Below the pieces are notes generated by a model that was not told where the DNA came from, ran no database searches, and saw nothing but the letters and a program-made list of their open reading frames with translations. From Acidobacteriaceae bacterium (GTDB taxonomy: Bacteria > Acidobacteriota > Terriglobia > Terriglobales > Acidobacteriaceae), in NCBI GenBank assembly GCA_027307045.1, contig DAHUXR010000042.1, positions 1 through 37,745 of the forward strand: 37,745 nucleotides of DNA. Reading direction: 5' to 3'. The position numbers and the translations under genes were made by a program. The first letter of the stretch is position 1; each line of letters opens with the position of its first letter. Of the stretch, positions 12,202-25,829 are shown in pieces.

Positions 12202-12399
12202 ATGTCCACGTTGCTTCATGAAATCAACTATGCCGTGCGCAAGCTACAGAATGCCCCGGCTTTTGCTGCGCTCGCGGTATTGACGTTGGCAATGGGAATC
12301 GGGGCGAACACCGCTATGTTCACCGTGATTGAATTTCGCGCTCCGCTGCGCTGCGCGCGGGCCTTCGGCAGAGCGGAAGAAACTCAATTTCGTGCTTAA
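12202..12399 (+). pseudogene. Truncated N-terminus of an ADOP-type FtsX/MacB-like permease
   Basis: The ATG at 12202 (GGAG in front) opens with LLHEINYAVRKLQNAPAFAA and LAVLTLAMGIGANTAMFTVI. This is the characteristic N-terminus of the acidobacterial duplicated orphan permeases, which are normally about 800 residues. Homology stops at about 12330. The frame then runs through palindromic repeat sequence for 23 unrelated residues and ends at 12399. No permease remainder is found downstream. The gene is therefore a remnant cut off by a repeat insertion or deletion and is presumably not functional. Confidence 0.75.
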
Positions 12400-12560
12400 C
12401 GGCACGGATAAATCCGTGCCCTGACACTTGTGTCGCATGGCGGACGGGCAAAGGCTAAAAGCACAGGATGTTCCGTTCTAGAGGCGGCACGTGGCGGGTG
12501 CCGTTCAACTTTTGGCCATGGCCGAATTCGCGAGGGCGCTTGTGCAAGCGCACGCGACAT
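12331..12560. repeat. Cluster of short palindromes following the permease remnant
   Basis: Several hairpin-forming sequences are packed together: GGCACGGATAAATCCGTGCC (12401-12420), CGGCAC/GTGCCG (12485-12490 with 12498-12503), GGCCATGGCC (12513-12522) and GCGCTTGTGCAAGCGC (12536-12551). The first is of the 'GGCACG...CGTGCC' dispersed-repeat type. No gene is supported between 12400 and 12624 on either strand. Confidence 0.65.
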
Positions 12561-13089: not shown

Positions 13090-13198
13090 CCTGGCAAGGC
13101 CGTGGTTGCCAATACGACTAAGCTCCCCCCAGGGAATAAAGCCACGATTCCTTAAATGGTTACCGAAAATTTTCCGTTTGAAGACAAACCATTTCCAC

Positions 13199-13772
13199 TG
13201 TCATGGTGAGCGAAGCCCGAACGACCCTGAGCGTGCGAAGGGGAGCAAGGGCGAGTCGAACCATCCCGAGGATGTGTCCTTTGCGATGCTGCTTCAGGGA
13301 GTTCTCTTTGAGAATCGTTGTGCTACCACCCTTGCCCATGCGTGATGGCTCTTATTACGAGTTCTGGGTTTATATCCTCACCAGCCGCACCGGCACGCTT
13401 TACGTCGGGGTGACCGGTTACTTAGGCCCGCGCATCATGCAGCACAAAATCGATTCCATCGAAGGCTTTACCAAAAAGTACAAGGTCCATCGGCTTGTTT
13501 ATTATGAGAGTTATGAGCATGTGATGACCGCCATCCGCCGCGAAAAGCAGTTGAAGGGCTGGCGTCGGGAGAAGAAGATCGTACTGATCGAGAAGATGAA
13601 TCCACGCTGGCAGGACTTGGCCGAGAACTGGGGCCGGGAAATGCGCTTCCGGGGACAATCTCTCAAGAGAACGCCTTGAATCAGCATGGCAAGGAAACAT
13701 TCTCGGGATCCTTCGACTCGCCCTTAGCTCCCTTCGCCGGCTCAGGGGCTTGCGGGCGGCCCAGGATGACAA
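13199..13772. mobile_element. Inverted-repeat element carrying a GIY-YIG nuclease gene
   Basis: Two arms of about 115 bp in opposite orientation (13199-13315 and 13656-13772) enclose the GIY-YIG gene. Read in the same direction, both contain GCGAAGGG, AAGGGCGAGTCGAA, ATCCCGAG and GTTCTCTT in the same order and spacing, and both begin with TGTCAT. The right arm overlaps the last codons of the nuclease gene. A related unit without a gene lies at 25189-25424. Mobility is inferred from the architecture and from the second copy. I see no target-site duplication. Confidence 0.65.
13338..13679 (+). CDS. GIY-YIG nuclease family protein
   Basis: The gene encodes 113 residues from the ATG at 13338; the frame is open upstream into the repeat arm, where the translation has no homology. 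The GIY-YIG core is seen as EFWVYILTSRTGTLYVGVTG (residues 7-26), with VYI and YVGVTG in place of the literal GIY and YIG. The expected downstream arginine/glutamate features follow in YKVHRLVYYES and AIRREKQLKGWRREKK. Length and layout fit the small single-domain YhbQ/UPF0213-like members. It would be a metal-dependent endonuclease. Its enclosure between long inverted repeats suggests that it is the mobility or maintenance gene of that element, not a repair gene; this is inference. Confidence 0.85.
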   Translation: MRDGSYYEFWVYILTSRTGTLYVGVTGYLGPRIMQHKIDSIEGFTKKYKVHRLVYYESYEHVMTAIRREKQLKGWRREKKIVLIEKMNPRWQDLAENWGREMRFRGQSLKRTP

Positions 13773-13887: not shown

Positions 13888-13962
13888 GGGCGCTTAACTC
13901 AGCGGTAGAGTGCCATCTTCACACGGTGGAAGTCATAGGTTCGAATCCTATAGCGCCCACCA
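13888..13962 (+). tRNA. tRNA-Val (anticodon CAC), CCA encoded
   Basis: The cloverleaf is complete. The acceptor stem is GGGCGCT/AGCGCCC, the D stem ACTC/GAGT, the anticodon stem CCATC/GGTGG with loop TTCACAC (anticodon CAC), and the T stem ATAGG/CCTAT with loop TTCGAAT. The discriminator is A, followed by a genomically encoded CCA. It lies 115 bp after the GIY-YIG element, but I see no duplicated 3' end that would mark an attachment site. Confidence 0.95.
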
Positions 13963-25042: not shown

Positions 25043-25188
25043 ACGTCCTCTGTCACAAAGCTCCACCCCGTGGGGGACACGGCAATCTTCTAAGACGGCG
25101 TAGAAGCGAGGGGTCCCTGACGATTTCGTCGCGAAGGAGCGAGAAATCCGCTCCGGTAGTGGGTTGTTTGAAAATTACAGCATCCGCT

Positions 25189-25424
25189 TGTCATGGGGAG
25201 CGAGTCGAATCATCCCGAGAATGCATCCCTTGCTAATGCCGCGTCAAGAAATTCTCTCCGGCTTTTTCCCGGTTATGTCCGTGCTACCGCGGGACAATAA
25301 GTTGCGGAGAAAAATGTTATTAAGAGAACTCCCTGCCACGGCATGGGCAGGAATACATTCTCGGGATGCTTCGACTTGCGCTCATACCGGCTTCGCCGGA
25401 ACGCGCGCGACGCTCAGCACGACA
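25189..25424. mobile_element. Gene-less relative of the GIY-YIG inverted-repeat element
   Basis: The left arm (25189-25257) and inverted right arm (25321-25424) both contain GTCGAA, CATCCCGAGAATG, CC(T)TTGC/CCTGCC and a TTCTCT motif in the order seen at 13199-13315. The start TGTCATGG and the internal GTGCTACC (25281-25288) are also shared with that element, whose copy of GTGCTACC is at 13319-13326. The central 60 bp hold no gene. It looks like an internal-deletion (MITE-like) derivative. Confidence 0.6.
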
Positions 25425-25829
25425 GTTCAGAAGGAGCTTCGTCAAACTGAGACACAATCATAATCTGGCTTTTTTCATTGACTCTAGGGCGAATAAATGG
25501 TAGAGTTAGATATTCGGCTCTAGGTTGAAGTGTGTCCTGGGCTCGATCTTTGACAATTTAATCTACTAGCTCCTAGCTGCTGGCTACCAGCAAAGGCTGG
25601 GACTAACGACCAAGTCAGTTGCATGGGCTTGCGACCCTCTGCCGACCGAACAGTAAAAACGGAAAAGAAGGCTGAAATTGGGCCGGATTCGACCGCTGAA
25701 AAACGCGAAAAAAGGCTTTCGACCGGTCGGTCACCGTTCGGTCGAAGTGAGGTTTGACCTTTATTTTCAATAAAAGTGTCTATGGGGGGTGGGGGTCTGG
25801 CTGAGGGACGCAGGCAGAGGGCTGCAAAA

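Follow-up and report, generated by a model that had tools for sequence, protein, structure and literature searches.

A nuclease gene boxed by facing copies of a dispersed repeat

The window, by which we mean the whole stretch of 37,745 nucleotides that was analysed, comes from a contig of an Acidobacteriaceae bacterium and carries a small GIY-YIG nuclease gene between two facing arms, a tRNA gene and, elsewhere, a facing pair of the same repeat that encloses no gene. The features are as follows.

13198-13306, + strand: left arm (repeat copy), R1 match of 95.9 bits; its inverted match with the right arm extends to 13313
13338-13679, + strand: GIY-YIG nuclease gene, 113 amino acids plus TGA, PF01541 match
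13667-13772, - strand: right arm (facing repeat copy), R1 match of 78 bits; hairpin to 13770
13888-13962, + strand: tRNA-Val, on the downstream side of the unit; it served to locate the unoccupied site in relatives
25188-25256, + strand: copy of the arm repeat, the left half of a facing pair that encloses no gene, R1 match of 47.7 bits
25324-25425, - strand: right half of this gene-less pair, R1 match of 82 bits

R1 is a covariance model of the repeat with 98 positions, which was built from 20 copies, both window arms among them, and which fits both arms at full length. A local comparison aligned 13215-13313 with 13661-13757 at 83% inverted identity over about 100 bp (E about 1.5e-20) and, together with a Pfam match of the gene product (PF01541, E 7.7e-12), confirmed an earlier sequence-only reading of this DNA, according to which facing arms surround a 113-residue GIY-YIG gene. 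An inverted repeat arising by chance was ruled out by this arm similarity and by the matches of the repeat model across the own genome. The left arm has a TGTC tag at 13199-13202, where its hairpin also starts, an outer stem ATGGT/ACCAT, a CCC tail and, after the tail, a conserved 3' extension of about 40 nt that ends with GGGAGTTCTC; the right arm has the tag as its complement GACA at 13769-13772 and again a CCC tail. These tags form the outer ends of the unit and coincide with its limits in the sequence-only reading, 13199 and 13772. The right arm enters the 3' end of the coding sequence, as had also been claimed, and covers the last 10 coding nucleotides and the stop codon TGA. A longer open reading frame from 13203 would give 158 amino acids; the shorter start is favoured by the (M/V)RDG that three relatives (L115, L118 and L136) have in common there. 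Known structured RNAs were also considered as an identity for the arms, and only the tRNA was matched in the window (Rfam, gathering threshold).

The Pfam match covers residues 9-80 with 45.8 bits against a cut-off of 22.6 and assigns the protein to the GIY-YIG superfamily; no transposase family was found in the same scan of the gene, and no annotated subfamily was matched in NCBIfam. Catalytic roles in GIY-YIG enzymes belong to conserved Tyr, Tyr, Arg and Glu residues. In the alignment with 64 relatives, Y12, R32, H36, F44, Y48, E69, K73, R77, K80 and N88 are unchanged, and Y22 and G24, which are present in the window protein, are conserved at 90% or more. Because the residues expected for GIY-YIG catalysis are present, the nuclease is probably active, as judged from its sequence. 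Its AlphaFold2 model (pLDDT 81.4, pTM 0.75) found UPF0213 1zg2 (BH0048) as the best Foldseek match in the PDB (E 3.2e-4), followed by Slx1 (E 0.023) and weaker ones. A solved close relative was sought by a sequence search of the PDB, which gave 1zg2 alone, at E 0.008.

The own genome, a 4.99-Mb draft in 356 contigs, has four GIY-YIG matches besides the window gene: a 652-aa frame, taken to be UvrC on the basis of its length, and L013 (diverged), L009 (distant) and L143 (broken). The three non-UvrC paralogues have neither tagged arms nor R1 arms, and around them we found short inverted matches alone, with scores of 9.0-14.5 (the 99th percentile of the controls is 14.0). L143, at C133:12985-13242, is broken by an in-frame TGA, and its tree neighbours L129 and L140 are likewise without GTCAT-tagged arms. 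Another genome, G051, contains seven GIY-YIG matches of the nuclease family, including two on contig C11 that are separated by about 600 bp, and a recent amplification is possible there.

An initial DNA search gave 36 matches in the own genome, counting the unit itself and arm-against-arm, and R1 gave at least 37 when 150 of 1807 candidates were scored. Of the 37 counted matches, 35 do not flank the window's nuclease gene. The sequence-only reading would have been refuted if the arms were scattered independently of GIY-YIG genes and if orthologous genes lacked them; the first is what we see, as it would be for REPs, and the second is not so, because close orthologues in the genus have arms.

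For the alignment we used 20 own-genome copies, omitting six further ones (of 26) with odd 5' parts. In the alignment the TGTC tag, invariant in all 20, precedes an outer stem of 5 bp; a variable inner part comes next, then a conserved stretch resembling GTCGAAGGATCCC, and finally the extension. In the outer stem 86.4% of the cells are paired, 10 cells are changed on both sides (shuffled mean, 2.3) and the covariation score is 0.274 against 0.122 in shuffled alignments; each of these three values was reached in 0 of 500 shuffles and all six slid versions were lower, and two of the five pair measures were unremarkable, namely pairs changed on both sides (43/500) and further pair types (161/500). 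The first stem pair A-T occurs as AU in 7 copies and GU in 2 and is unpaired in 11, and the stem letters GGT/ACC of the window's left arm stand against CCT/AGG in most copies. Folding of whole arms was no better than that of shuffles (z from -1.22 to 0.51, all eight arms folded), and a strong hairpin across the whole arm is not supported.

Among the 37 matches are two facing pairs that enclose no gene; their halves are 55 and 67 bp apart, and the latter distance is that of the pair at 25188-25425. Beside this pair, within 25080-25480, there is a further stretch that resembles a hairpin, of the type GATTTCGTCGC...GAGAAATCC. At 12335-12440 the window also contains a second dispersed repeat, a GGCACGGAT/ATCCGTGCC hairpin unlike the arms in sequence, which has dozens of matches in the own and other genomes of the genus.

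The unit within the genus

R1 was detected in all nine genomes of the genus, with counts from at least 9 to at least 115; here as in the own genome, up to 150 candidates were scored per genome and the counts are lower bounds. All seven near-full-length loci of the window's nuclease clade in the genus (L114-L118, L135 and L136) are boxed by facing copies, including two with broken nuclease frames (L118 and L136) and one with an extra repeat copy between the gene and the outer arm (L115). In L142, a gene fragment, the 3' end adjoins a copy and no copy lies on the opposite side within the stretch examined, and two nuclease remnants (G008 C81 and G007 C24) adjoin repeat copies by position. The overlap of gene end and arm is conserved: in the seven loci where residue 113 was matched (the window, L115, L116, L117, L118, L135 and L142), the 10-nt overlap is identical and TGA is the next codon.

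Two observations concern the limits of the unit and its sites. When L118 and L136, which belong to different genomes, were compared, about 550 bp aligned with ends within 2 bp of both tags, and no flank match over 60 bp was found. At the window's own site beside tRNA-Val, 789 bases lie between flanks that match G005, where the same flanks are separated by 80 bases; both flanks were matched in G005 only, and the tRNA side only in the seven other genus genomes. In none of these eight genomes was an arm match (E 0.1) or a nuclease match (E 1) found in at least 1.5 kb upstream of tRNA-Val. Either the lineage of the window therefore acquired the unit or all the other genus genomes lost it, and a gain is simpler. 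The exact insertion point is unreadable because the spacer has diverged. A second unoccupied site, that of the unit of G005, was not counted: the matched flanks in G006, where no nuclease was found, are about 270 bp apart with other repeats there, and the own-genome contigs break nearby. The unit resembles an insertion sequence in that inverted terminal repeats bound it and that one genome has it at a site where others lack it; it differs from one in that inspection by eye of the ends of seven units revealed no target-site duplication and that its gene matches no transposase family.

The unoccupied site bears on a homing-like route, in which the nuclease would cut a gene-less pair and repair from a boxed unit would copy the gene in. 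Gene-less facing pairs such as that at 25188-25425 would offer targets of this kind, and homing endonucleases occur among GIY-YIG enzymes according to the cited part of PMC1564403. The flank at the unoccupied tRNA-Val site, however, shows no repeat match in any of the eight other genus genomes, and we regard this route as distinctly unlikely.

An intact clade nuclease was found in four of the nine genus genomes, G000 (the window's own), G002, G004 and G005, with at least 37, 115, 62 and 30 matches, respectively. None was found in G001, G003, G006 (81% complete), G007 and G008, which keep at least 44, 34, 12, 60 and 9 matches. By analogy with REPs, the repeats seem to outlast the enzyme.

Tagged hairpins beside related nucleases in many phyla

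One scan of genome contigs gave 92 relatives of the nuclease, and we took the best 80, which come from many phyla. In a plain inverted-repeat test, 41 of 79 relatives (one locus was excluded as too short) lay beyond the 99th percentile of the control set, which comprised 1155 places, and 13 exceeded the highest control. A more specific search concerned facing pairs of GTCAT-tagged hairpins, which occur at 47/80 relatives and at 5/256 other ORFs of the same loci (Fisher p 6e-30), where L054, L068 and L083 depend on a doubtful second hairpin and the control ORFs exclude direct nuclease neighbours and any ORF lying 300 bp or less from the end of its locus. One or more hairpins in the proper orientation occur at 65/80 relatives against 44/256 of these other ORFs; when a 4-bp stem is required, 27/80 relatives have a facing pair and 43/80 have one or more properly oriented copies. 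With ten alternative five-letter tags, facing pairs were found in just 0-3 of the 80. The density of GTCAT hairpins is 4.37/kb within 300 bp of the gene and 0.41/kb elsewhere, where nested hairpins may be counted more than once. Their orientation is asymmetric, with 64 on the + and 31 on the - strand upstream and 33 and 78, respectively, downstream.

Fifteen relatives have neither a pair nor a copy under this tag; at L079, L087, L100, L101 and L104 the arms are clear and it is the tag or the closing pair that deviates, and others have no arms. Twenty further loci from the same bacterial family gave six facing pairs and 11 cases with at least one copy. The tails of 142 correctly turned copies near the 80 relatives are CCA in 46, CTA in 24, CTC in 23 and CCC in 12. 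Unusually long hairpins (about 60 and 74 nt) were noted beside two GIY-YIG relatives, one from a KSB1 MAG and one from a Bacteroidetes MAG: in L108 at 193-260 and 713-779, and in L106 upstream of the gene.

These results bear on the view that the arms are merely transcription terminators or mRNA-stabilising hairpins, shared through inverted duplication. The covarying stem would form in RNA too, and REPs are found predominantly downstream of coding regions according to the cited part of PMC3733652. Against this stand copies on both sides of the gene, mostly tag-outward (64/95 upstream and 78/111 downstream), as well as the enrichment of GTCAT near the gene and the scarcity of pairs with other tags, and this view appears very improbable to us.

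Two recurring classes of repeat were recognised beside the nucleases: class P consists of perfect hairpins of the TTCCCGC kind, and class G comprises the NNNGAGCGA kinds, which have a 3-bp stem beyond AT and to which the window's repeat belongs; for the internal loop of class G, a form akin to a kink-turn was considered. We observed that the repeat class follows the nuclease phylogeny. On a tree of 108 rows, 76 of which were labelled by the analyst after the repeats had been viewed, the class changes five times, against a shuffled mean of 25.7 and a lowest value of 17 in 300 shuffles; this count omits 32 rows of no clear class as well as L034 and L036, which duplicate L117 and L136. The number of changes is rough, since the tree was built on few columns and leaves 60 of 105 inner branches open, and the shuffles are still far off. 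Among the 22 CPR-named rows there are three changes against a shuffled mean of 7.2, a value as low being reached in 2 of 1000 shuffles. When the unlabelled rows were treated as a third group, G changed 19 and P 15 times (shuffled means, 31.7 and 30.8; 0/500 each).

Co-occurrence of R1 and the nuclease clade across genera is weak. In a census of the family with one genome per genus, where up to 99 candidates were scored per genome and the counts are lower bounds, six of 41 genomes had any R1 match at E 1e-6, and more than four matches were found only in the window's genome (at least 34) and in G053 (at least 49). The nuclease of G053, L172, lies between R1 copies, of which one is weak (26.5 bits), and is by path length the nearest nuclease found outside the genus. 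It was nested in the window's clade (SH-aLRT 91) before L131 and L142 joined the tree; with these two added it falls only in a wider clade (SH-aLRT 98), which also has rows from G012, G013, G046, G051 and G055. The same census counted at least one R1 match in G012 and none in the other four; weak R1 matches (23-43 bits) lie beside the genes of G012, G013, G046 and G051, as would be the case for diverged versions of the repeat.

A further explanation is that another enzyme spreads the repeats, with the nuclease gene standing between copies by chance or as cargo. Such hitchhiking would suit the 35 own-genome matches that do not flank the gene, the five genus genomes that keep matches with no intact clade nuclease found, and the lack of arms in some homologues. 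It is opposed by the contrast in facing pairs between the relatives and the other ORFs and by the tracking of nuclease clade by repeat class, and we consider it quite improbable. It appears that the gene and the repeat have shared their evolution and their movements. The sequence-only idea that they form one unit holds as far as the scattered copies with shared ends, the genes boxed by facing copies and the class-clade relation are concerned; its expectation that GIY-YIG genes always lie inside complete copies fails at the three own-genome non-UvrC paralogues and at the 33/80 relatives with no facing pair of GTCAT hairpins.

A probable nuclease-repeat pair and its known counterparts

A homologue in Neisseria gonorrhoeae, 52% identical over 92 residues (E 8e-27), lies amid dRS3-type CGTCATTCCCGC repeats and is, presumably, Ssn itself. 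Ssn, as Chenal et al. are said to have described in 2025, is a GIY-YIG nuclease that cuts single strands site-specifically at a Neisseria repeat (NTS) and influences transformation; its homologues reportedly number in the thousands and have sequences of their own. The homologue comes from a N. gonorrhoeae record filed among plasmids; NZ_CP119140.1 and NZ_CP119142.1, which are so filed, are about 2.17 Mb long and look like whole chromosomes. The window's unit has two traits of the Ssn type, namely the homology to a Neisseria protein standing among dRS3-type repeats and a many-copy repeat that also adjoins the gene, and we infer that this repeat is the substrate of the nuclease.

A control of recombination or DNA uptake might be the role of such a pair: the nuclease would cut incoming or transient single-stranded DNA at the repeats and shape transformation, the repeats would be host sites, and the unit would spread passively by homologous recombination between repeats. 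The closest characterised kin, Ssn, is said to act in this way, the Neisseria homologue sits within dRS3-type arrays, and the repeats are numerous and scattered in the own and genus genomes. The flank at the unit's site, however, shows no repeat match in the eight other genus genomes, so simple exchange between pre-existing repeats fails to explain the insertion there. We regard this explanation as possible, with the odds leaning somewhat against it.

The reading that we prefer, with a probability of roughly two in three on the basis of sequence comparisons, is a functional nuclease-repeat pair that works by site-specific cutting. The direct results concern the anatomy and the dispersal, the covarying stem, the orientation of the copies, the limits of the unit, the polymorphism at one site and the joint phylogeny of repeat class and nuclease. 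The unit would be a gene for a single-domain, Ssn-type GIY-YIG endonuclease between hairpin repeats that the enzyme recognises, with the tags outward. When a repeat becomes single-stranded during replication, transformation or recombination, the tagged strand would fold (TGTC, an AT-NNN stem, NNN-AT and a CCY tail), and the nuclease, for which we suppose a preference for single strands, would nick adjacent to the hairpin. Cuts at both arms would release or expose the unit or a repeat, and such nuclease-driven movement or copying would be completed by host polymerase, ligase and recombination. GIY-YIG enzymes are known to cut DNA and are not known to rejoin it, and transposition would therefore require host partners. 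Solitary copies and short gene-less facing pairs may be the non-autonomous relatives of the unit, as REPs and REPINs are to RAYTs.

The sequence-only reading knew of no description of such a system, and in this it falls short, since Ssn with its Neisseria repeat is reportedly a described case. Among the matches listed in a search of the open literature (abstract openings), no paper tied GIY-YIG enzymes to REPs or RAYTs. Tagged REPs of the corresponding kind are in print, however: the cited part of Di Nocera et al. (2013, PMC3733652) describes CGTC/TGTC-tagged REPs with AT first stem pairs and a CCA-like tail, dRS3 of Neisseria being one, and the CGTC-tagged REPs are apparently left there with no dedicated transposase. 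A GIY-YIG nuclease is now linked to them by position, orientation and shared phylogeny in many phyla and, in one acidobacterial genus, by a site at which one genome carries the whole boxed unit and it was not found in eight. The broader proposal that the GIY-YIG family provides the missing mobilising enzymes of these REPs throughout bacteria, by hairpin-guided single-strand cutting plus host repair, is in our estimation rather unlikely. If it were true, a chemistry besides HUH and DDE would spread a transposon-like unit and its non-autonomous hairpin relatives. The link becomes directly testable, and pairs of nuclease and repeat class allow comparison of specificity in vitro.

Compared with CGTC/TGTC-tagged REPs, the window arms share TGTC, AT first pairs, a short C-rich tail and pairs in opposite orientation. 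They differ in that the CGTC-tagged REPs have a stem of 8-9 bp and a loop of 4-5 nt, whereas the arms have a 5-bp outer stem, only 3 bp of it beyond AT, then an internal loop, a long inner part and the extension. The tail agrees roughly, being mostly CCA in these REPs and CCC in both arms. The class P repeats of the relatives are a good fit to these REPs.

As to the protein, the model of the window nuclease shares the GIY-YIG fold with UPF0213 (BH0048, 1zg2) and Slx1, and differs from both in sequence, with identities of 27% or less in the Foldseek alignments. Slx1 is a eukaryotic repair nuclease carrying an extra domain. Like Ssn, the window protein is a small single-domain GIY-YIG enzyme, and a tagged hairpin repeat occurs in many genomic copies, some beside the gene. 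Unlike the hairpins of Ssn, which are about 27 nt long, the arms are about 100 nt long and carry a 40-nt extension, the gene takes its stop codon from the right arm, and the unit is seen as a discrete, site-polymorphic entity.

The analogy with RAYTs, which the sequence-only reading had drawn, is a good one, because the repeat and the nuclease form a unit comparable to that of REPs and RAYTs: an enzyme gene is flanked by copies of a dispersed palindromic repeat, and short gene-less pairs occur elsewhere. The enzyme differs, being GIY-YIG and not HUH tyrosine according to Pfam, and so does the tag, TGTC in place of GTAG. The unit is thus best filed as a variant of the Ssn-type GIY-YIG enzymes with tagged REPs that works like RAYT/REPIN. 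The nuclease-repeat partnership as a kind has reportedly been described already and is not new; what is new is the long-armed acidobacterial variant, together with the evidence for the boxed unit as a discrete entity that is polymorphic at its site.
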